DNA from: Nereida ignava
GTDB taxonomy: Bacteria; Pseudomonadota; Alphaproteobacteria; Rhodobacterales; Rhodobacteraceae
Direction: 5' to 3'
DNA length: 64,000 bases
NCBI RefSeq assembly: GCF_001049735.1
Contig: NZ_CVPC01000005.1
Span: forward strand, 124,001-188,000
Below the pieces are notes generated by a model that was given only the letters and a program-made list of their open reading frames with translations, had not been told where the DNA came from and did no database searches. This document shows, one piece after another, positions 7,209 to 42,150 of the stretch. How positions within the stretch are numbered: the first letter of the stretch is position 1; each line of letters opens with the position of its first letter. The position numbers were made by a program, and so were the translations under genes.

Positions 7209-8312
7209 TTAAAGGGACGCGTCCAAAGCGGCTAAGATAACGTCGCCCATCTGGATGGTGCTGATTGGGGTGCCACCGTCTGGGCCCATCAGATCACCTG
7301 TACGCGCACCATCGGCCAGCACTTTTTCAACCGCTGCTTCAAGGCGAGCAGCCTCAGCGCCTTGGTCAAACGAATAGCGCAGCGCCATCGCGAAGGACAA
7401 AATACACGCGATTGGGTTCGCTTTGCTTTGGCCTGTGATGTCAGGTGCGGAACCATGTACCGGCTCATAGAGCGCTTTGGGGCGACCGTTTTCGCCAATT
7501 GCCCCAAGAGATGCAGAAGGCAGCATGCCAAGCGAGCCAGTCAGCATTGCAGCACAGTCAGACAAAATATCACCAAACAGGTTGTCTGTCAGGATCACGT
7601 CAAACTGCTTAGGCGCGCGGACCAACTGCATTGCGCCATTGTCTGCGTACATATGGCTTAACCCAACTTCGGGGTACTCAGCGTGCACTTTGGTCACGAC
7701 TTCACGCCACAAAATGCCACTTTCCATCACGTTCGCTTTTTCCATAGAGCAAACGCGTTTGTTACGGCGCATAGCCAACTCAAACGCAGAGCGCGCAACG
7801 CGGTCAATCTCGGCTTCGGTGTAGCGCTGGGTGTTGATGCCTACGCGTTGGCCGTCTTCTTCGAAGATGCCCCGTGGCTCGCCGAAGTATGAACCTGATG
7901 TCAGCTCACGAACGATCATGATGTCGAGGCCAGATACGATGTCACGCTTCAGGCTTGAGAAGTCAGCCAATGCGTCAAAACACTGTGCCGGGCGCAGGTT
8001 TGAGAACAGATCCATCTCTTTGCGCAGGCGCAGCAGGCCGCGCTCGGGCTTCACGGAGAAGTCCAGATCATCATAGGCAGGGCCACCAACGGCACCGAGC
8101 AAAACGGCGTCCGCGGCATGTGCTTTGGCCATCGTGTCATCGTGCAAAGGCGTGCCGTGAGCATCATAAGCCGCGCCACCGACAAGGTCGGTTTCAACGT
8201 CAAACGACAGGTCGCGCTTATCGCCGAACCACGCGATAACGCGCTCAACCTCGGCCATGACTTCGGGGCCAATGCCGTCACCGGGCAGGATCAAAAGGGA
8301 GGGGTTCGCCAT
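7209..8312 (-). CDS. leuB: 3-isopropylmalate dehydrogenase
   Basis: A 367-residue cytosolic enzyme that oxidises and decarboxylates 3-isopropylmalate with NAD in leucine synthesis. The N-terminus [11 protein letters not shown], the substrate motif around [20 protein letters not shown] with metal-binding aspartates, and the NAD-binding PVHGSAPDI are all intact, and the length is normal. It is the last leucine gene of the minus-strand cluster leuC-leuD-(two other genes)-leuB. A strong terminator follows it. The ATG at 8312 is the only sensible start. Confidence 0.97.
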
Positions 8313-8378
8313 TGCAACAAGTCCTTCTTAAAATTGGTTGCTTAGCGGGTAGCCCGTTCGCCCCCAATGGTCAAGAAA

Positions 8379-9323
8379 TCAGGGCCTCAGGGTAACGTCC
8401 GCCCAGACCAAACCGTGCCGCCCCATGCCAGCAGGCGGCCATAAAACACCGCTGCTGCGCGGTGTAATATCGGGCGAGGCCAGAACATAACTAAGCCGTA
8501 GGCGGTAGGCGTTTCGAAATTCAGCTGTGTGGCCGGTTGGTGCTGCATCCTGCAGATCAGCGCGCGCAAACATTTGCCCCATCAGTGGGTCCTGCGCCGG
8601 ATCAAGATTAAAGAGCCCCGCAAGAATGAAGGGCTGAGACATGCTTGCGGACCCGCTTGGCGCACCACGCTCGGCCAAGGCGGTATCAAGGCGACCATCC
8701 AATAGATGCGCCCAAAGGCGGATCTCATCTGCGTTGCGTTTGCCGTTGCGGTCTTCGTCCCCATCAAAAATGGGTGGCGTTGCCTCAAAAGTAGCTAGGG
8801 TAAAGCCATCAAACGGCACGATCCAATGCACTTGAGATGACAGCCGTTGCGCCGCTTGGGCGCGCGCAGACGGAAAAGGGGCGCCATCGGGGTAAGTTGG
8901 CAAATCAGCATCAGGCAAGTCGCGCCATAACAGATCAGACAGATCGATCACTGGCCCAGCGATCGGGCGTTTTGAAAGCACTGCAACACCGCCGTGGCCC
9001 GCAAAGCGTCCGTCCCCTTGGGCGTCGCGGGGTTGGCACAGCTTACTGTCGCCGTCCATATCAAGCCCCGTAGCCATGCCCGCGTTAGGCAAGCTGGTAA
9101 ACATATGATCAAAACCAAGATGGGCGTTCAGCGCGGTAAGCGCGCGGGCGTCATAATCCCAATCAATGCCCTGCAAGATCAAAACATCCGGATTTGCCTG
9201 TTTGATCAGCGCGACGCGGGCCATGACTTCATCAGTTTCGCGTTTGATATCGCGGAGCAAAAGCGCGGGACCACGGGCCTGAAGTTCTGTTTGATAGGTT
9301 GCAACGCGCAGGGTCTGAGACAT
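8379..9323 (-). CDS. Endonuclease/exonuclease/phosphatase family protein
   Basis: At least 314 residues of the EEP fold. TLRVATYQTEL begins the domain, and GHGGVAVLSKRPI and RHGLVWAD are recognisable family strands. Two usual catalytic positions look altered: the motif normally reading LQE is LQGIDWD, and the usual GDFN is AGLFN. Catalysis is therefore uncertain. The first in-frame ATG is at 9323, but the reading frame upstream (to about 9395) encodes a clear signal-peptide-like segment ending in CASLA, so translation probably begins at a non-ATG codon near 9368 (CTG) or just after the preceding gene's stop at 9395. It is likely exported and coupled to the upstream membrane-protein gene. Confidence 0.75.
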   Translation of the reverse strand: MSQTLRVATYQTELQARGPALLLRDIKRETDEVMARVALIKQANPDVLILQGIDWDYDARALTALNAHLGFDHMFTSLPNAGMATGLDMDGDSKLCQPRDAQGDGRFAGHGGVAVLSKRPIAGPVIDLSDLLWRDLPDADLPTYPDGAPFPSARAQAAQRLSSQVHWIVPFDGFTLATFEATPPIFDGDEDRNGKRNADEIRLWAHLLDGRLDTALAERGAPSGSASMSQPFILAGLFNLDPAQDPLMGQMFARADLQDAAPTGHTAEFRNAYRLRLSYVLASPDITPRSSGVLWPPAGMGRHGLVWADVTLRP

Positions 9324-9394
9324 CGCCAAGCTCGCGCAAACTGTTACCCAGATACAAAGCGCCGTCAGGATTGGTTTCGCAAAGCCGCTGAGGC

Positions 9395-10240
9395 CTAGGC
9401 CACCAGAAAGTCGTCCGCCTCGGCGACTTCTGCGGCATAGGTGCGGCGGCGTTGGTCGGCGATCATATCGGCCACACGGCTCGTCGCGATGCCACGCATA
9501 AACAAAGATGCCGGTAAAAATGCCCACGCTGCCATCGTCCATATCAAGGTCTGCGGATTGGTCATTGCCATCGGGCCAAAGAAATCAGCCGCAAGCTGAA
9601 CCACCACAGGGATGATGAATGGCAGCAGAAACACTAACATAATGTTAAAACGCGCATCCTTGTTGAGGCGGCGCACCACATCACCACCGGCGGTTGGATC
9701 GAACATAGGCAGGTTAATCCACACGTTGAACGTGCCCGAATTACTCGGCCAACGGGACAAACGAAGCGCGGCCAAAAATACCGCCAGCGATAGCAGCGAG
9801 GTCAGATAGCTGATGCCTGCGGCGGTGCGCACGGCAGTGACAATCTCGGCGGGGCTGTCCACAGGAAGCATGCCCACCACCAGACGCACGGGCGAGAACG
9901 GAAAATCAATCGATGCGCCAATCCGCTGGCCGATGGCGGCGGTAAATTCGGTTACGGGCGTGGCGTCGTACTTCCCACTACAAATAATCGACAGAACCAA
10001 AACGGTAAAAAACAGAGAACCGAAACGAATCCGATTAAAAGGCGGTGCAAAGCGGAACTCAATAAGCGAGGGATAGTCCGATTTATATTCGATGAACGTC
10101 AGAATGGCGGCAGCGATGGCGATGAAGGATACAATTTCCAACCCACCAGCGATGGTTGCGGGCAACATCACTGATGGCAACGCGATAAGCAGGATGACAC
10201 AAAAGGCGCGAATAGCTGCGCCAGCAAAACGGGAAAACAT
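9395..10240 (-). CDS. Conserved multi-pass membrane protein of unknown function
   Basis: A 281-residue protein with about six hydrophobic segments and short charged loops, plus an arginine/alanine-rich cytoplasmic C-terminus (ADQRRRTYAAEVAEADD). I recognise it only as a type commonly found in Rhodobacteraceae between leucine genes and an EEP-family nuclease; no enzymatic motif is visible. The start ATG at 10240 (MFSRFAG) is preferred to 10264 or 10282, since the hydrophobic region begins right behind it. It is probably cotranscribed with the downstream nuclease-like gene, with which it has essentially no spacing. Confidence 0.7.
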   Translation of the reverse strand: MFSRFAGAAIRAFCVILLIALPSVMLPATIAGGLEIVSFIAIAAAILTFIEYKSDYPSLIEFRFAPPFNRIRFGSLFFTVLVLSIICSGKYDATPVTEFTAAIGQRIGASIDFPFSPVRLVVGMLPVDSPAEIVTAVRTAAGISYLTSLLSLAVFLAALRLSRWPSNSGTFNVWINLPMFDPTAGGDVVRRLNKDARFNIMLVFLLPFIIPVVVQLAADFFGPMAMTNPQTLIWTMAAWAFLPASLFMRGIATSRVADMIADQRRRTYAAEVAEADDFLVA

Positions 10241-10570
10241 CACCAAAACCTCAAACTCGTTATGCATAAACCAAGTATACACACGCTTATTTACGCGCCC
10301 TTTTGCTCGAAAACCTGCGCTTGGGCATCTAGTTAATGATCAAGATATGCCCATATTCAAAAATCCAAACAACTGTTTTGCATCTGTGATGTCTGATTTT
10401 GATACTACTTTAGGAAGGAAGTAGTGCGGGTTTGCACCACGTTTGGAAATCCGTAAAAACAAGGCACAAGATGTTGCGAGAGGCAAAAAAGGAGGCACAA
10501 GTCCGTTAAGCCAAGATGAACAGCAACGGTCAGCTATTTACGCAAACTTGCCCAAACCCGCGGCCCAAAA
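10241..10570. other. Intergenic region with no gene seen
   Basis: About 330 bases between the membrane-protein gene and the terminator of leuD. No open reading frame here has a ribosome binding site or recognisable product. The stretch is lower in GC than its surroundings and presumably contains the promoter for the membrane-protein/nuclease pair, but no convincing -35/-10 pair could be picked out. Confidence 0.5.
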
Positions 10571-10605
10571 CGAAAAACGCCCACCCAGAAACCACTGGAT
10601 GGGCG
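10571..10605 (-). terminator. Rho-independent terminator of leuD
   Basis: An 11-bp stem with one G-U wobble (10578-10588 with 10595-10605, 6-base loop) is followed on the minus strand by TTTTT and CG. It lies 23 bases after the leuD stop codon and separates leuCD from the next two genes. Confidence 0.85.
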
Positions 10606-10628
10606 CATAATCTGAAAGCCTAAGGGCG

Positions 10629-11234
10629 TTAGACCCAAGGACGGCTTTTGGACAGCTCGGCCTCGAATGTGTCGATGGAGGCGGCCTTTTCCATGGTCAG
10701 GCCAATGTCATCAAGACCGTTCATCAGGCAGTGCTTTTTGAACGCATCAACTTCGAAAGAGAACGCTTCGCCGTCGGACGACGTGACGGTTTGCGCTTCG
10801 AGATCGATGATCATGCGCGCGTTCGAGCCTTTCTCCGCGTCTTTCATCAACACATCAACCGCCTCTTGGGGCAGCACGATTGGCAGGATGCCGTTCTTGA
10901 AGCAGTTGTTGAAGAAGATGTCTGCAAAGCTGGTTGAGATAACAGACTTCACACCGAAGTCTTTCAGCGCCCACGGCGCGTGCTCGCGCGAAGAGCCGCA
11001 GCCAAAGTTATCGCCAGCGACCAAAATCTCGGCGTTCCGGTAGGCATCTTGGTTCAGAACGAACGTCGGGATTTCCGCGCCACCGTCATCATAACGCATC
11101 TCGTCGAACAGGTTCACACCAAGGCCCGAACGTTTGATAGTTTTCAAAAATTGCTTCGGGATGATCATATCAGTGTCGATATTGATCAAAGGAAGCGGCG
11201 CGGCGATCCCTGTAAGGGTTTCGAATTTATCCAT
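10629..11234 (-). CDS. leuD: 3-isopropylmalate dehydratase small subunit
   Basis: A 201-residue subunit that joins LeuC to isomerise 2- to 3-isopropylmalate. It shows the family core [29 protein letters not shown] with the swivelling-domain loop, and the usual length. Its start lies 75 bases after leuC on the same strand, so the two subunits are made from one transcript. A terminator follows it, so leuB downstream is likely expressed separately from leuCD. Confidence 0.96.
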
Positions 11235-16646: not shown

Positions 16647-17168
16647 ATGATTTCGAAATTGACGACTGCATGCGCGGTACTGGCCCTTTCGGTTACAGCG
16701 AGTTTTGCGCAGGAATCGAGTAACCAAGTGGCGGCCAAAACGGACTGGAGCGTCTTTGTTGAAAGCAACCCGACTGAATGTTGGGCAGTCTCGGCCCCTA
16801 AAGAAACAGTAAACACCAAAGATGGCCGCGTCGTTGCGGTGCGCCGCGGTGACATCTTGTTGTTCACATTCTTCCGCCCCGGCGCGTCTGTAAAAAACCA
16901 GCTGACCTTCACGGGCGGTTATCCTTTCGCAAACGGATCGACTGTTTCCATGGAGATCGGTTCTGCTTCATTTGATCTGTTCACTGACGGCGAGTGGGCG
17001 TGGCCCGCAACACCCGAGGATGACGCTAAGATCGTGACAGCCATGAAGCGCGGCGCAACTGCAACGCTTACGGCCCGCTCATCACGCGGCACGATCACCA
17101 AAGACACCTTCAGCCTGTCTGGCTACACCGCCGCAGTTGATGACGCCGCAAAGCGCTGCGCAGGCTGA
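16647..17168 (+). CDS. Invasion-associated locus B (IalB) family protein
   Basis: A 173-residue exported protein. A signal peptide of about 21 residues ends in SFAQE, and the mature part is a compact beta-rich IalB domain (W-S-V-F, CWAVSAP, GDILLFTFFRPG, VSMEIGSASFDLFTDGEWAWP, a C-terminal cysteine in AKRCAG that could pair with the first one). Family members are periplasmic; the name comes from Bartonella, and the biochemical role is unknown in general. GGAGG eight bases upstream fixes the ATG at 16647. A strong terminator follows, so it is a single-gene unit. Confidence 0.85.
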   Translation: MISKLTTACAVLALSVTASFAQESSNQVAAKTDWSVFVESNPTECWAVSAPKETVNTKDGRVVAVRRGDILLFTFFRPGASVKNQLTFTGGYPFANGSTVSMEIGSASFDLFTDGEWAWPATPEDDAKIVTAMKRGATATLTARSSRGTITKDTFSLSGYTAAVDDAAKRCAG

Positions 17169-17198
17169 TCCCATAATCGCCCATGTGGGCTTTGAAAC

Positions 17199-17227
17199 AA
17201 AGGACTGGTGCGCGCACTGGTCCTTTT
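17199..17227 (+). terminator. Rho-independent terminator after the IalB-family gene
   Basis: A hairpin of about 12 bp with two wobble pairs (AAGGACTGGTG at 17200-17210 against CACTGGTCCTT) is followed by TTTT. It ends transcription of the upstream gene 30 bases after its stop, before rlmN begins. Confidence 0.75.
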
Positions 17228-17287
17228 GCGTTTTGACAGGCAGTGACGTATGAGATGCGTCATATTCCAATTCGGAGATTCCCCAGC

Positions 17288-18472
17288 ATGGCCAATGCAC
17301 CCGTTACGCAAGATGTATTGACGATCCCGCGCAAGCAAGTGGACGGGCCGGTTAACCTGATCGGACTGACACGCCCTGCGTTGCGCGAAGCGCTAATCGC
17401 AGCGGGTGCGCCCGAGAAGCAGGCCAAAATGCGAGCAGGCCAGATTTGGCAGTGGCTCTATCAATGGGGGGTGCGCGACTTTGATGCGATGACAAACCTG
17501 TCCAAAGCATACCGTGCCGAACTTGCAGAGAATTTCATAATTGAGATCCCCGAAGTTGTATCAAAACAAGTAAGCAGCGACGGCACCCGCAAGTGGTTGG
17601 TACGTATCGCAGGCGGCCACGAAGTTGAGGTAGTTTATATCCCCGAAACCGATCGCGGCACCTTGTGCATCAGCTCGCAGGTTGGCTGCACGCTGACGTG
17701 TTCATTCTGTCACACGGGTACGCAAAAGCTTGTCCGCAACCTGACCGCTGGCGAAATTATCGGCCAAGTTATGATGGCGCGGGACGATCTGGAAGAATGG
17801 CCAACACCGGGTGAAAAGCACGTTGAAGGGCGATTGCTGTCGAACATCGTGCTGATGGGCATGGGTGAGCCGCTTTATAACTTTGAGAACGTCCGCGACG
17901 CGATGAAGATTGCGATGGACCCAGAGGGCATCCAGCTGTCACGCCGCCGCATCACTTTGTCGACCAGCGGCGTGGTCCCAGAGATTGCCCGCACCGCCCA
18001 AGAAATCGGCTGTCAGCTGGCGGTGTCTTTCCACGCCACCACAGACCCCATCCGTGATACCCTTGTACCGATCAACAAGCGGTGGAACATCGAAGCGCTT
18101 TTGGATGCGTTGCGCGCCTATCCAAAGGCAAGCAACTCTGAGCGGATTACGTTTGAATATGTGATGCTCAAGGGTGTGAACGACAGTGACGAAGATGCGC
18201 ATCGCTTGGTAAAATTGATCGGGGGCATCCCCGCCAAGATCAACTTGATCCCGTTCAACGAATGGCCAGGCGCACCTTATGAACGCTCGTCGAACAACCG
18301 CATTCGTGCGTTCGCAGATATTGTTTACAACGCAGGCTACTCAAGCCCAGTGCGCAAACCGCGGGGCGAAGACATCATGGCAGCATGTGGTCAGCTAAAG
18401 TCCGCAACCGAGCGCGAGCGTAAATCACGCAAGCAAATTGAGGCCGAAGCGGGCATGGCCGCGCAGGATTGA
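17288..18472 (+). CDS. rlmN: 23S rRNA and tRNA adenine C2-methyltransferase
   Basis: A 394-residue radical-SAM methyltransferase that methylates C2 of A2503 in 23S rRNA and A37 in some tRNAs. The radical-SAM motif CTLTCSFCH holds the three cluster cysteines. GMGEPLYNF is the SAM-binding motif, and [11 protein letters not shown] contains the C-terminal cysteine that forms the covalent intermediate. The start ATG at 17288 follows GGAG at good spacing; an extension to 17243 is unlike the family. Its stop lies one base from that of the convergent dehalogenase gene. Confidence 0.97.
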
Positions 18473-18473
18473 T

Positions 18474-21400
18474 CTAAAGGTCAATCTCTAGCACCCCATC
18501 TTTTTCAGCAGCGCGCGACTGGCACAAAATAATTGTGTCTGCGCGCTGTGCTTTTGACAGCACAAAATCACGGTGCTCAACATGACCGCTTTTCACACCG
18601 CATTTACACACGCCACAAATCCCATCCAAGCATTTCACATCCACACGGATACCGTTTTCATTAAGAACATCCGCCGCCGTTTTATCTTTGGGCACCGCAA
18701 GCGTGCGGCCGTCATTTAGCTTAATGGCAAACGGCTCATTCACGTAATCAGGCTGCTCTGGCACACTGAAATACTCCAAATGTCGCGCTTCTTCCGGAAA
18801 GCCCAGCGCCGCAGCAGATTGAATGACAGACTTCATGTAAGCCTCACTGCCGCAGGTATAGATGTGCATACCTCGTTCATAGGCGGGGATGCTTTCATCC
18901 AGATTAACCCGCGTACCTTCGTCAGTGATGTGTAGTTGTACATGGCTGGCCCATGGCACATTTACCAGATCATCCAGATACGCCATCGAAGCGCGCGTGC
19001 GGCCAGAATAGTGCAACGCAAACGGGCGGCCTTCGGCGTGTAATTCATGGGCCATTGCGATCATCGGCGTGATGCCAATCCCGCCACCAAACAAAAGCGT
19101 GGTATGTTCTGTCTGCTCAAGGGCAAAGTGGTTGATGGGGGGCGATACAAAGACCCTTCGGCCTTCCTCAAAAATGCGGTGCATCAACTTAGATCCCCCG
19201 CGGCCATCATCCTCGCGCAGCACACCAATTTGATAGGTGCTCCTGTCAGCGGGATTACCAGACATGGAATACTGGCGAAGATATTCTGGGGATACCAACA
19301 CGTCCAAATGCGCACCCGCCTGCCACGCAGGAAGGGGCGAGCCGTCTGCGGCAGTGAATTCATATTTCGCAATATCGGCCGTCATCTTTTCGACTTTTGA
19401 GATGCGCATCTCAATCACAGGGCTGTCCCCATCGGCGGTGTAGGTGTGCGCAACCTCGGCCACTTCGCCGCCCGCCAGCTTGGCCTTATAGGCGTCTGCG
19501 GTGATCATATCGCGGTAGGCTTTAATCCCGGCTTCTCGGTCCATCTCAAAAGGATACGGATAGGGGTGCGGCGCAAGGTTGGCCGGATAAACCGCAAGGG
19601 TTTGGTCTTCGTATTTCAGATCAAGATCCTTTTGCAGATCGCGCGCATTGACAGGTTTATCTGTCGGGCGGTAGCCGCCGTCCTCAGTAATTTCGAGATC
19701 CCACCACCACTTTTTGACGCTGTTCAAACCGCCATTACCAACCGCATCATCAAGCTTTGCTAGTAACGGTGCTGCTTTTGGCACATTCATCGCAGCCCAC
19801 CGAAAGGGCTTTTCCTTGAAGACCCCCTCAAGGTTCCACGGGCAAGTTTTCATACAGCGACCACACATCGCGCCACCCGGTGTTGTAACGCGGTATGTTG
19901 TGCATTTCTGGCTATCAGATTTCCAAATCTCATAGCCGTTGAACATCAGTTTTGGTCCCGCGGTGATCGCCCCGCTTGGACACTCGCGCGCACATTTGTT
20001 GCACGCGTTACAAAAGTTCTGCAGCCCGAAATCAATCGGCTTGTCGTGACTAAGCGGCAGGTCCGTGGTCACCACACCAGATTTCAGCCGCGGCCCCAAA
20101 AAGGGGTTAAGGATGACTTCACCAATGCGGCTGACCTCGCCCAACCCTGCCAAAAGCAACAGCGGCGGCTGCAATACCTCACCGTCCATCACCGTGTGGG
20201 CCTTGGCGGAATACCCAAGATTACGGATTTGTTTGGCCAACACACCGCCCAGCAAAGAGAACCGCAAATATGCGCGCATGGATTGCGCGACCGCAATCCA
20301 ATCATCCCCCGACGACCCCTCCATCGACGGATAGCCCTGATCAACAATCGTCGAAATTGCCTGATCGTGGGTAGGCGTGATCGGTGCACCCGTTGCATCG
20401 TGCGAATACCACGTCCAATCAGGGCAGCGCGAAATGCCAACAGCGTCGACGCCCAAAAAGTAGCTGGTGGCTTTTACCAAATTGGCGGCCTCAGTCGGGC
20501 TTAGCTGCGCTTTTTCAGCCGCTGGCACACCGTCTTGCAACAGAACAAACGCCCCAAGCGCACGGCGCTGCGCCGACGACGGAGCCGATTTTCGCACATA
20601 CAAGCCACCCGTAGAGGCCTTTTGCAGCGGCTTACCCATATCGCCGAACTGCGCACGCGCAAACATATCTGTGCGCTTTGGAACGCGTGCCACCCGCGCT
20701 TCGTCAATGTAAGTTGTAGGATCATCTACACGCTTCAGTGTCTCGAACGGATGTGCCCCATCTACAAAGCGCCGCTTGGCAAAAGGCGCCGCGTTCAACG
20801 CATTTTTCGCTGATTTTGTGCCAAGCTTCCAACGGATGCCAAACGCACTTTTGGGTTGCTCGGCCAAAGGGACAAGCGGGCGATCAACCGCAAGATCAAG
20901 CGAGGTTGTCACAACAGCCAGACCAAATCGCGTGCCAACGTAAGGATGTGTCAGCGCACCATTTTCGACAGTTGTCAGGCCCGCGCTGACCGAAAGACGG
21001 CCAAGGTCCACATCACTTGTGCTGGCCGTATGCGCGCGCGCCGACTGCCCCAAAACGCGTAAGTAATTGGCAATGACAGTCGCAGACTCAGCCGCCAGCA
21101 AAGCCGCGCGGTGGGCATAGGCGCCCTCGATCCATTCTGTGCCAATTTCATCCGGCAAAATATCCCGCGGATTTTCGTACAAAAAGACAATGGCGTGGGT
21201 GTGATCATCGATTGAGGTTACAGGCGCTTGGACCGAGTCTTTCAGATCGGCCATGATCATATCAATGCCCGATGCCAGCGATTTGGTTTGCCGCGTTTGC
21301 AGGTCATGGGCCAAGCGGTCGATGTCAGGGTTGCGGAACGGCGCCACAAGGCGGTCCGTATCCGTGATGCGGCAAATACCGACAGCGGCTGCATCGTTGA

Positions 21401-21677
21401 AAAAGCCAAAAGCCTTAAGGTGATCCGCACGCTCTTGAATATCCGATGGGATATCGCTTTGCCCGCGGTTGATCAGCCCGTCCCGGATGGCATCTAGCAT
21501 TGCTTGATGTTCGCGCATGGCATTGATGACAGAATGCGGCTTATCAGACGTGAACGTCAGTTGGGTTTGCTTTGGAACACCACGCAACATCGGCTGCTCG
21601 CCCCGCGCCAAAAGCTCTGAAGGGTATGGCCCCATATGAATGGGACGCGTTTTGTCAGAGAAGAAGCGAACGGTCAT
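18474..21677 (-). CDS. Self-sufficient catabolic reductive dehalogenase (B12/Fe-S domain fused to flavin-2Fe-2S reductase)
   Basis: A 1067-residue fusion. Residues about 1-335 and 335-640 are two related halves: LGQSARAHT near 209-217 matches LGYSAKAHT near 487-495, and each is followed about 40 residues later by a VVTT segment. This is the arrangement of cobalamin-dependent reductive dehalogenases with a vestigial N-terminal copy. Two ferredoxin-type motifs follow: C556, C559, C562, C566P and C592, C605, C608, C612P. Residues about 755-975 form a flavin/NAD reductase domain (RQYS 801-804, GGGIGITP 864-871). The last 80 residues are a plant-type 2Fe-2S ferredoxin (C1016, C1021, C1024, C1052). 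There is no Tat signal and no adjacent membrane anchor, so it should be cytosolic, taking electrons from NAD(P)H to cleave carbon-halogen bonds as in the NpRdhA/BhbA group. The substrate is unknown. ATG at 21677 is the likely start; TTG at 21692 is possible. It lies alone between rlmN and tRNA-Lys. Confidence 0.88.
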   Translation of the reverse strand: MTVRFFSDKTRPIHMGPYPSELLARGEQPMLRGVPKQTQLTFTSDKPHSVINAMREHQAMLDAIRDGLINRGQSDIPSDIQERADHLKAFGFFNDAAAVGICRITDTDRLVAPFRNPDIDRLAHDLQTRQTKSLASGIDMIMADLKDSVQAPVTSIDDHTHAIVFLYENPRDILPDEIGTEWIEGAYAHRAALLAAESATVIANYLRVLGQSARAHTASTSDVDLGRLSVSAGLTTVENGALTHPYVGTRFGLAVVTTSLDLAVDRPLVPLAEQPKSAFGIRWKLGTKSAKNALNAAPFAKRRFVDGAHPFETLKRVDDPTTYIDEARVARVPKRTDMFARAQFGDMGKPLQKASTGGLYVRKSAPSSAQRRALGAFVLLQDGVPAAEKAQLSPTEAANLVKATSYFLGVDAVGISRCPDWTWYSHDATGAPITPTHDQAISTIVDQGYPSMEGSSGDDWIAVAQSMRAYLRFSLLGGVLAKQIRNLGYSAKAHTVMDGEVLQPPLLLLAGLGEVSRIGEVILNPFLGPRLKSGVVTTDLPLSHDKPIDFGLQNFCNACNKCARECPSGAITAGPKLMFNGYEIWKSDSQKCTTYRVTTPGGAMCGRCMKTCPWNLEGVFKEKPFRWAAMNVPKAAPLLAKLDDAVGNGGLNSVKKWWWDLEITEDGGYRPTDKPVNARDLQKDLDLKYEDQTLAVYPANLAPHPYPYPFEMDREAGIKAYRDMITADAYKAKLAGGEVAEVAHTYTADGDSPVIEMRISKVEKMTADIAKYEFTAADGSPLPAWQAGAHLDVLVSPEYLRQYSMSGNPADRSTYQIGVLREDDGRGGSKLMHRIFEEGRRVFVSPPINHFALEQTEHTTLLFGGGIGITPMIAMAHELHAEGRPFALHYSGRTRASMAYLDDLVNVPWASHVQLHITDEGTRVNLDESIPAYERGMHIYTCGSEAYMKSVIQSAAALGFPEEARHLEYFSVPEQPDYVNEPFAIKLNDGRTLAVPKDKTAADVLNENGIRVDVKCLDGICGVCKCGVKSGHVEHRDFVLSKAQRADTIILCQSRAAEKDGVLEIDL

Positions 21678-21804
21678 AAAGCTGTGATCCAAAGGTTGTT
21701 TGAAACAGTGGTAGCAGCATTATGTGAAGAAGTGGAATGCCTTGCGGCGGTGTCCGGTGCCTCGCGTGTTCACGCATCACTCTCATGGTAGAAAAGAGAG
21801 AAAA

Positions 21805-21880
21805 TGGTGAGCCCTACAGGGTTCGAACCTGTGACCTACTGATTAAAAGTCAGCCGCTCTACCAGCTGAGCTAAGGGCCC
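21805..21880 (-). tRNA. tRNA-Lys (anticodon TTT)
   Basis: A complete 76-base cloverleaf on the minus strand. The acceptor stem starts GGGCCC, the anticodon loop reads CTTTTAA giving UUU, the T-loop is GGTTCGAAC, and CCA is encoded at the 3' end. The 3' end faces the reductive dehalogenase gene, 127 bases away. Confidence 0.97.
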
Positions 21881-21892
21881 ACACAAGGCGCT

Positions 21893-21921
21893 TATCTAGA
21901 AAGACACTCCGATGGGGTCAA
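21893..21921 (-). promoter_or_regulatory. Probable promoter of tRNA-Lys
   Basis: On the minus strand a -35 TTGACC (21921-21916) and a -10 TAGATA (21898-21893) are separated by exactly 17 bases. They lie about 13 bases upstream of the mature tRNA 5' end, a typical stable-RNA promoter position. The -35 sits inside the near-palindrome GGGGTTGACCCC. Confidence 0.65.
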
Positions 21922-21998
21922 CCCCGTTTTTTCAGAATCTCTTTCCCTTTTATTATGAAATCCCTATATCCGCTCAAATGACCAAAAATACTGATCAT

Positions 21999-22799
21999 AT
22001 GCCCGTCAATTTTATGAAAATGCACGGTGCCGGAAACGATTTTGTCGTAATCGACAGTCGTAATGGTGGTCCTGTGGTGTCTGCAAAGCTGGTTGCGGCC
22101 ATCGCTGACAGGAATCGCGGCGTGGGATTCGACCAACTGGCCGTCATCGAGGACGGGCTGCGTCTGACATTTTACAACTCGGACGGATCTACATCGGGGG
22201 CGTGTGGAAATGCTACCCGCTGCATCGCTGCGCGCGAAATGGCAATGACGGGGGTGACAGAGCTTGCGCTTCAAACGGACCGCGGCGCACTTCGGGCGGT
22301 GATGGTTGACGGTGAAACATGGATCAACATGGGCCAGCCGCAACTTGAATGGCACGACGTGCCGCTTGCCGAGCCACTCGATACCTTGTCGCTTCCGATT
22401 GATGGCAGCCCTGCGGCAACTGGCATGGGCAACCCGCATTGCACTTTCTTTGTGGATGATGCCGAGGCAATTGATCTGGCTTCTTTCGGTCACAAGCACG
22501 AGCACAATCCGCTTTACCCCGAACGCACCAACGTCCAAGTCGCCCATGTTGTGGGTCCTGACCATCTGCGGATGCGCGTATGGGAACGCGGCGCAGGTAT
22601 CACGCTTGCCTCTGGTTCGTCTTCCTGCGCCACGGCTGTTGCTGCGCATCGCCGCGGATTGACCGGACGCAAAGTGCGAATTGATCTAGATGGTGGCACG
22701 TTAGTGATTGACTGGCGTGATGATGGCGTGTGGATGACAGGCCCGACCGCCCATGTTTTTGACGGTGTTCTGACAGCCGGTTGGTTGGCGGGCTTATGA
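21999..22799 (+). CDS. dapF: Diaminopimelate epimerase
   Basis: A 266-residue cytosolic enzyme converting LL- to meso-diaminopimelate for lysine and peptidoglycan. [15 protein letters not shown] opens the fold. The two catalytic cysteines are in ACGNATRC (first half) and in [10 protein letters not shown] (second half), a conservative variant of the usual G-S-G-x-C-A-T-A. The start is ambiguous: ATG at 21999 sits next to the conserved N-terminus and ATG at 21978 is also possible. An upstream extension to 21912 would run into the tRNA-Lys promoter. Its stop overlaps the next gene as ATGA, forming a dapF-mtaB-GST operon. Confidence 0.94.
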
Positions 22800-40216: not shown

Positions 40217-41128
40217 CTATTTGAAGCGAACCTGCCGTTCTGCGGCCAGCTTGATCCCCAAATGACGCTCGCGAAGCACGATCACAACACCAGCAAGCAC
40301 GATCAACGCAGCACCCGAAATAACACCCAAAGTCGGCACTTCGTTGAACCAAGCATACCCAATGCCAATGGCAAGCAGCATCGCAGTATAATCAAAGGGC
40401 GCCACCACAGACGCTGGCGCGAACCGGTAAGACTGCGTCAGACACAATTGCCCCACCCCACCGATGATACCGCCCAAAATAAGCAACAACGTCGTTTCAA
40501 GTGGGGGCACAACCCAACCAAAAGGCAGCGTTAACAACGACAGAACCGAGGTGGTCAACATGAAGTAGAACACAATCGCTGTTGAACTTTCTGTAGCTAC
40601 CATCTTGCGCACAAACATCTGCGCCAATGCCGCCATCGAAGCGCTGACCAGCATCAAACCAACGGCGATGGTCTTCATCCTTTCACTGGTGTCAAAACTA
40701 AGCTGGTCCCACAAAATGATCAGCACACCCGCAAAACCAAGACAAACCATAGAGATACGGAACTTGCCTACGGTCTCCCCTAAAAAGAGGGCCGCAAAAA
40801 CAGTTAGAACAAGAGGTGTGGTAAAGCTAAGCGCTGTGACGTCTGGAAATGCCAGAATACCGAGACAGAAAAACCTTAGCCCCATTGAAGTACTGCCGGC
40901 CAAACCACGCAGAACATGACCAATCGGACGCTCTGTTTTCAGCCCTGTAGATAAATTGCCGCTCCACCACAAAAAAGCAAACAGCACAGGAAGGGTGAAA
41001 ACGGACCGGAAGAAAACGGCCTCGCCGGTTGGGACCTCATCTGCGGTCGCTTTGATGATGCTCATCAGCACAGTAAACAGCGACACGGCCAAAATTTTCA
41101 GTGAAATGCCTTTGATGGTGTCGGTCAT
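40217..41128 (-). CDS. EamA-family (DMT) transporter 3
   Basis: A 303-residue protein with ten predicted helices in two EamA repeats. The start ATG at 41128 overlaps the queG stop (ATGA), so it is translated together with queG. The substrate is unknown. It is the last gene of the GST2-queG-transporter operon. Compared with the two other EamA genes in this window it belongs to a distinct subgroup judged by the helices' sequence. Confidence 0.82.
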
Positions 41129-42150
41129 GATAGCCGCCCAACTGCCCATTCTGCAGCGTCCCGAACAACCGGATCATTGTCATTGAGCAAAGCTTGCGCA
41201 TGAGACTTCAACTCAGGCTTTCCTGAATTTCCAATCGCGTAAAGGACATTGCGGGTGAACCGATCTCGGCCAATCCGCTTGATTGGTGAGCCAGAAAAAC
41301 GTGCGCGAAACGACGCATCATCAAAAGACACTAACGCAGCCAGTTTGGGGGCTTTTAACTCCTCGCGGGCCGCGTATTTCATTTCGGTCGCAGCGACAGC
41401 AAATTTATTCCATGGGCACGCAGCCAGACAATCATCACAACCGTAAATATGGTTACCCATCTTCTCACGCAGTTCAGGCGCAACAGGGCCTTTGTGCTCA
41501 ATTGTAAGGTATGAAATGCAGCGCCGCGCATCCAATTGAAACGGCGCGGGGAACGCATCTGTGGGGCATGCATCAAGGCATGCTGTACACGATCCGCAAT
41601 TATCAGTTTGCGCTTCGTCCGGCTCAAGCTCTGCCGTCGTGAAAATCGCCCCCAGAAAAAACCAGTTTCCAAGATCGCGCGCCAACAGATTTGTATGCTT
41701 ACCCTGCCAACCTAAGCCCGCCGCTTGCGCCAGCGGCTTTTCCATAACTGGTGCCGTATCAACGAAGACTTTAATCTGAATGTCGCCCTGCTCTACCAGC
41801 CAGCGCCCCACCTTCTTAAGCCGCTTTTTAGCAACATCATGATAGTCTTTATTCTGCGCATAGACACTAATTGCGCCCAGCTCTGGCCTGCTCAAAACTG
41901 TGCGTGGATCGTGTTCAGGCGTGTACATTTCCGCCAACATAATAACAGATCTGCATTCGGGCCACAGGTCTTGCGGGCTGCCGCGCCAGTTCATACGCTC
42001 TGCCATCCAACTCATCTGACCGTGATATCCCGCCTCCACAAAAGCGGATAACCGTTGCGCCGTTTCCGGCGCGGCGTCAGGTTTGCACACCCCCATTTTG
42101 GCAAAACCGGCGTCCTGCGCCACGTCCCAAAGGCGGGCTTTCAAGGACAT
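41125..42150 (-). CDS. queG: Epoxyqueuosine reductase
   Basis: A 341-residue cobalamin-dependent reductase finishing queuosine synthesis in tRNA. Two ferredoxin motifs are present: [12 protein letters not shown] and [11 protein letters not shown]. The active-site aspartate is expected in the segment before them. A HEAT-like C-terminal tail ([16 protein letters not shown]) is typical. The ATG at 42150 immediately follows the stop of the GST-like gene. This protein is a small, distant relative of the reductive dehalogenase family, sharing the corrinoid/Fe-S chemistry. Confidence 0.95.

Follow-up and report, generated by a model that had tools for sequence, protein, structure and literature searches.

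What does a bacterium gain from removing halogens from aromatic compounds when the ring-breaking enzymes searched for are not found in its genome? The question is raised by a gene in a 64,000-nucleotide stretch of Nereida ignava DNA (contig NZ_CVPC01000005.1; the window), which at positions 18474-21677 of the minus strand encodes a protein of 1067 amino acids with the architecture of a reductive dehalogenase (RdhA) fused to a phthalate dioxygenase reductase (PDOR). We hold with high confidence that this is a cytoplasmic, self-sufficient RdhA-PDOR reductive dehalogenase that would be driven by NAD(P)H and act on ortho-bromo- and ortho-iodophenolic compounds. The grounds for this assignment are the domain order, the cluster ligands, the active-site residues, the fold match of the model, the intact gene, and the presence of CobN in the genome.

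Domain order, active site and predicted fold

An earlier note on this DNA had placed a gene at these positions without stating a strand. The intact frame was confirmed, and it lies on the minus strand, where it runs from an ATG at 21677 to the stop at 18474 without an internal stop codon; read from 18474, the plus strand contains several stops. A TTG at 21692 is an alternative start that would lengthen the protein by five residues.

Five elements follow one another along the protein, all encoded on the minus strand. Residues 82-268 (20874-21434) form a vestigial corrinoid-type domain, an internal duplicate of the core to which it aligns with 50.4 bits, compared with no more than 24.6 bits in 50 shuffles; it has a weak match to TIGR02486 (21.2 bits) and carries Ala and Phe in place of the catalytic Tyr and Lys. 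Within it, a gap separating two phmmer stretches marks an insert of about 42 amino acids relative to NpRdhA (residues 110-157; 21207-21350), which is possibly the one described for JtRdhA and related fusions in PMC10463259. The functional corrinoid/Fe-S dehalogenase core spans residues 308-659 (19701-20756) and includes two [4Fe-4S] motifs (C556/559/562/566 and C592/605/608/612; 19842-20012), recognized by their cysteine pattern and by Fer4 matches. There follow a reductase domain with flavin and NAD(P)H sites, of the kind found in phthalate dioxygenase reductase, at residues 751-972 (18762-19427), with RQYS at 801-804 and GGGIGITPM at 864-872, and a plant-type [2Fe-2S] domain at residues 989-1056 (18510-18713) with C1016/1021/1024/1052. 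Each of the 12 cluster cysteines thus stands where it had first been reported.

The active site described for NpRdhA consists of F291, S422, M423, Y426, K488, and R552 (PMC10463259), and these residues correspond to F339, S466, M467, Y470, K532, and R596 of the window protein. Conservation was assessed in an alignment of 94 sequences, made up of the window protein, 12 loci from sampled genomes, 77 of the best 80 loci from public contigs, and four plasmid loci; L040, L065, and L096 were left out because no long clustered frame was found in them. All six residues are kept in 93 of the 94 sequences (F339 in 94 of 94), the window included, as well as in BhbA, and the 12 cluster cysteines are likewise kept in 93 of 94. 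The exception in both cases is L180, a relative on a plasmid of Yoonia sp. SS1-5 (8001-11208) whose frame meets its first stop after 394 residues, ahead of the cysteines. The PLSDB table, itself incomplete, lists no gene at this place, and the broken frame may reflect decay or a sequencing error.

The profile search suggested in the earlier note bears out the assignment. The NCBIfam reductive dehalogenase model TIGR02486 scores 181.9 bits against a cut-off of 160.35 (BhbA, 203.3 bits), and phmmer matches both NpRdhA (E 1.8e-158) and phthalate dioxygenase reductase (2pia; E 2.3e-52), in addition to the self-sufficient P450-PDOR fusions 6kbh and 6laa. Fer2 reaches 39.1 bits (cut-off 21), and the cut-offs of three Fer4 families (PF12838, PF13484, and PF00037) are likewise exceeded. 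The same note had named a best match to epoxyqueuosine reductase (QueG) as one outcome that would count against a dehalogenase; a QueG-like or other non-dehalogenase corrinoid enzyme is extremely improbable, for the weak TIGR00276 match that favors it (26.8 bits) is far under the cut-off of 200 bits while TIGR02486 passes its own, all six active-site residues of the dehalogenase are in place, and QueG of this genome is encoded by a different gene of the window (41125-42150, minus strand; 448.6 bits). That gene, some 20 kb from the dehalogenase, encodes another class III cobalamin enzyme.

A structure model, also proposed beforehand as a check, points in the same direction. The AlphaFold2 model, built on 44 alignment rows, has a mean predicted local distance difference test (pLDDT) score of 83.8 and a predicted template modeling (pTM) score of 0.81, and NpRdhA chains occupy all of ranks 1-14 in Foldseek. 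VIA-align superimposes the model on NpRdhA across 679 residues (Z 44.4; root-mean-square deviation, rmsd, 2.6; 42% identity) and on 2pia across 309 residues (Z 29.5; rmsd 8.7). Residues of about 308-660 also align with Sulfurospirillum multivorans PceA (Z 22.7-23.8) and with the membrane-bound reductive dehalogenase complex 8q4h (Z 24.6). From the fold match and the conserved residues, a corrinoid pocket is predicted.

The enzyme is further predicted to be soluble. No pair of arginines occurs in residues 1-60, in agreement with the proposed absence of a twin-arginine translocation (Tat) signal, and the maximum Kyte-Doolittle value over 19 residues is 1.42. For an adjacent rdhB, also said to be missing, the space is too small: the stop codons of the dehalogenase and of rlmN are a single base apart, and a tRNA-Lys gene lies 127 bases from the ATG or 112 bases from the TTG; this is judged from the available space, the RdhB profile itself not having been run. 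Neither mark of the PceA-type respiratory enzymes, a Tat signal and an adjacent RdhB membrane anchor, is therefore seen with the window gene. Profile, active-site residues, and structure model together support the proposal of a fused, soluble reductive dehalogenase that would draw on NAD(P)H.

Several observations weigh against this assignment or limit its reach. In the model the [2Fe-2S] domain is weakly placed, with pLDDT below 50 at residues 971-977 and 1017-1023 and the rmsd of 8.7 to 2pia noted above; so high an rmsd for the reductase module is consistent with loose placement of the [2Fe-2S] domain. The NAD-binding family PF00175 falls slightly below its cut-off (19.3 against 22 bits). 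The Pfam dehalogenase family PF13486 is not among the protein's matches up to E 1 and is silent in the genome as a whole; it is likewise silent in all 14 control genomes and is thus uninformative as a marker. Finally, the choice of substrate and cofactor cannot be read from the sequence, and chlorinated substrates may be accepted, since NpRdhA, unlike JtRdhA, reduces them (PMC10463259).

By analogy with JtRdhA and NpRdhA, from which the activity, the use of NADPH, the preference for bromine and iodine, and the electron route are all extrapolated, catalysis would begin with hydride transfer from NAD(P)H to the flavin of the C-terminal module, where the hydride would be split into single electrons. 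These would reach base-off cobalamin by way of the [2Fe-2S] cluster and then both [4Fe-4S] clusters, and the reduced corrinoid would remove a halogen ortho to the hydroxyl group of a bromo- or iodophenolic compound. Y470 together with K532/R596, the counterpart of the Y-K/R dyad of NpRdhA, would supply the proton. Own synthesis of cobalamin is likely, since CobN, the only cobalamin gene tested, is present in the genome (1565.9 bits against a cut-off of 822.05). Purified JtRdhA is described as NADPH-driven, tightly coupled, and active in air, with 3,5-dibromo-4-hydroxybenzoate and 3-bromo-4-hydroxyphenylacetate as its best substrates; iodophenols were accepted, and the chloro compounds tried were not turned over (PMC10463259). 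A literature search returned nothing on halotyrosines.

Characterized relatives and distribution

The closest counterpart is JtRdhA of Jhaorihella thermophila (WP_104007082), which shares with the window protein a vestigial domain, a corrinoid core, two [4Fe-4S] clusters, a PDOR module with flavin and [2Fe-2S] cluster, an insert that NpRdhA lacks, the absence of a Tat signal, and the same six active-site residues (PMC10463259); this likeness is drawn from the published description. BhbA, encoded on plasmid pBHB of Comamonas sp. 7D-2 (WP_015585978), is 49.8% identical over the full length and keeps the active-site residues and cluster cysteines, but its setting differs: the plasmid is typed as conjugative and bhbA lies one gene away from ring-cleavage genes, whereas the gene of the window is a lone one with housekeeping-type genes around it. 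On pBHB (L178, 5672-11219), ligA, an extradiol dioxygenase beta gene, a gene for a tripartite tricarboxylate binding protein, and bhbA lie on one strand, so that a single gene separates bhbA from the annotated protocatechuate 4,5-dioxygenase alpha and class III extradiol dioxygenase beta genes. This is a compact cassette for dehalogenation and ring cleavage, in contrast to the lone gene of the window.

NpRdhA of Nitratireductor pacificus (PDB 4ras, 6zxu, 6zxx, 6zy0, and 6zy1) has the same catalytic half but lacks the insert of the window protein. It had been cited alongside BhbA as a known case of such catabolic enzymes, but it is itself not fused, being described as having no reductase domain (PMC10463259). 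The reductase module itself resembles phthalate dioxygenase reductase (2pia) and the CYP116B-type P450-PDOR fusions (6kbh, 6laa), whose partners are dioxygenase or P450 systems and not a corrinoid enzyme. A further comparison is offered by Ros_A3X954 of Roseobacter sp. MED193, a reductive dehalogenase (RDase) of a marine roseobacter that likewise has no Tat signal and debrominates 2,6-dibromophenol, but is reported as highly oxygen-sensitive and has its Fe-S motifs at residues 283-345 (PMC13101508). These motif positions imply a short RDase, and its identity with the fused MED193 gene (L045, a relative at 70%) was accordingly rejected. Apparently, then, this marine strain has two kinds of RDase.

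Relatives of the fused enzyme are numerous. The sampled set comprised 61 automatically selected related genomes, 37 of them from the family of the window's genome, which is itself counted. A dehalogenase match at E ≤1e-60 was found in 16 of the 61, and a full-length match in 13 of the 37 family genomes (own genome included), with identities of 51-72% outside the window's own genome. A scan of public genome contigs returned at least 592 pattern stretches, of which at least 568 encode some relative. The best 80 of these loci all match the query from residue 5 or earlier to residue 1045 or later, with 67-74% identity, and by title the records are mostly Rhodobacteraceae or Roseobacteraceae, with some Hyphomicrobiales and Granulosicoccaceae bins. 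Of 992 plasmid records with a match, eight, that of BhbA among them, reach a query coverage of 80% or more. The earlier impression that such enzymes are known from few cases is therefore out of date: JtRdhA, of the same architecture, was characterized in 2023, the subfamily has already been published under the name of full-length or self-sufficient catabolic RdhA (PMC10463259), and nearly complete copies abound in Rhodobacteraceae-type bacteria. The window protein belongs to a known enzyme type, and its mere presence is not news.

Detoxification or catabolism as possible roles in the host

To judge by the record titles of its relatives, the host is probably marine. One contig of its own genome (C22; L168, 229-4738) carries a BchH gene (2012.1 bits), directly upstream of which a BchB-like frame of 326 amino acids, under the cut-offs, runs off the locus. 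Together with CobN, these adjacent BchH and BchB-like frames suggest that the host is probably a B12-making, bacteriochlorophyll-based phototroph.

The chief alternative to a catabolic role is detoxification, or halogen removal without mineralization, in which the enzyme would disarm bromophenols, or brominated aromatic acids, encountered close to algae or to other producers of halogens, with the product excreted or left. This is a plausible reading, although it falls just short of the balance of probability. No regulator, transporter, or catabolic gene lies directly beside the window dehalogenase, and JtRdhA combines tight coupling with activity in air (PMC10463259), as would suit such a function. 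Furthermore, PF00775, PF02900, TIGR01015, and TIGR02422 are all absent from the window's genome, which is estimated to be 100% complete, the gentisate, hydroquinone, Paa, and Box routes lying outside the search. The genome does contain six matches to PF00903, but they sit in open frames of 142-174 amino acids, too short for two-domain extradiol dioxygenases. A congener also lacks PF00775, PF02900, and TIGR01015 (hmgA). This reading thus leans on negative genome evidence, and it has against it that 11 of the 13 full-length carriers in the family hold at least one of the three ring-cleavage families PF00775, PF02900, and TIGR01015.

A truly catabolic role as for BhbA, in which the dehalogenated phenol would pass through ring cleavage into central metabolism, is possible, and we hold it only tentatively. 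The earlier note had called the enzyme catabolic, but in this host the searched families yielded no ring-cleavage dioxygenase. In its favor are the arrangement on pBHB and the same 11 carriers. However, 19 of 24 non-carriers also hold at least one of the three families (Fisher p 1.0), so that a link between carriage and ring-cleavage families across the 37 family genomes was rejected; in this count, sub-cut-off and partial matches were scored as present and genomes were treated as independent. The absences in the host and its congener, which in the host extend to pcaH, the short PF00903 frames, and the want of an adjoining catabolic gene also speak against it.

The neighborhoods of relatives were surveyed at 49 loci flanked on each side by 5 kb or more of sequence, one representative being scanned per gene cluster. 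Within 5 kb of the dehalogenase, a homogentisate dioxygenase occurs in 2 of 49 and a flavin adenine dinucleotide (FAD)-hydroxylase-like gene in 3 of 49, both of which favor catabolism. The hmgA representative scores 643.2 bits against a cut-off of 510.75; the FAD representative matches the FAD-dependent oxidoreductase model NF006002 (687.7 against 416), with the MhpA models below cut-off. A MarR-type regulator occurs in 7 of 49 and the large permease of a tripartite ATP-independent periplasmic (TRAP) transporter in 4 of 49; the dctM representative passes its cut-off, and the MarR and molybdenum-hydroxylase labels are under every cut-off. Molybdenum-hydroxylase-like subunits were counted at 13 of 49 loci, but 12 of these are Ruegeria by title (the other is a genus-less bin), which indicates one shared neighborhood counted repeatedly.

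The slot between tRNA-Lys and rlmN

The dehalogenase is the lone gene between two landmarks. On one side lies the convergent neighbor rlmN (17243-18472, plus strand; TIGR00048 402.5 bits, cut-off 290); on the other, directly upstream and on the same strand, lies tRNA-Lys (TTT; 21805-21880, minus strand), past which the first gene is dapF (21912-22799, plus strand; TIGR00652 219.4 bits, cut-off 114.65). On the minus strand of 21600-22000 no promoter-like site for the dehalogenase was found, and the sole terminator-like site falls within the tRNA. The congener (G001) keeps the order rlmN, tRNA-Lys, dapF, but its slot holds three unrelated open reading frames (ORFs), and its dehalogenase is on another contig, 61 bases from a tRNA-Thr gene on the same strand. 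The three ORFs (L153, 5728-7683) comprise one of 395 amino acids with sub-threshold Nuc_deoxyrib_tr and prok_STING matches, an 8xMP membrane protein of 148 amino acids (70.4 bits), and one of 166 amino acids with no match; the only PADLOC match is to JetC (14.5 bits). They are possibly a small defense-like module at a variable site.

In a quick tree of 93 rows, which excludes the broken frame of L180, the window enzyme belongs to a set of 30 rows (support 100) and the enzyme of the congener to one of 55 rows (support 95). The approximately unbiased (AU) test rejects grouping the two enzymes together (p 4.8e-6), on 37 hand-picked rows of the 93 and for a pair chosen after inspection of the tree, both trees being quick searches. 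Placement in different clades implies either separate acquisition or old paralogues with differential loss.

A further reading is that in this genus, in whose two sampled genomes no intradiol, LigB-type, or homogentisate dioxygenase turned up, the enzyme is uncoupled from catabolism, disarming natural bromophenols or salvaging halogenated aromatic metabolites, and spreads as a single gene that has landed beside tRNA genes, with different enzyme clades next to tRNA-Lys and tRNA-Thr in the two congeners; we consider this rather unlikely. Adjacency to a tRNA gene as a general rule was rejected, for among 90 loci, counting the window and with 500 bp or more of upstream sequence in 89, just two have a tRNA within 1 kb, namely the window and the congener. 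No direct repeats of the tRNA end, as expected of attachment sites, were found among repeats of at least 14 nucleotides in 17100-22000. A foreign base composition was also rejected, the GC content of the gene being 0.548, that of the window 0.541, and that of three neighboring genes 0.556-0.565.

What distinguishes the RdhA-PDOR dehalogenase of the window is therefore its setting: a lone gene in a tRNA-Lys/rlmN slot, a phylogenetically distinct copy beside tRNA-Thr in a congener, and a genome in which the families searched yielded no dioxygenase for ring cleavage. Whether fused enzymes are generally limited to brominated (and iodinated) substrates is left open in PMC10463259, since one example was studied in detail, and the window protein would be a further case for that question. 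Fused reductive dehalogenases occur widely among Rhodobacteraceae-type bacteria, including two congeners whose genomes yielded no common ring-cleavage enzyme, and it thus becomes testable whether debromination in these bacteria serves mainly carbon acquisition or detoxification.

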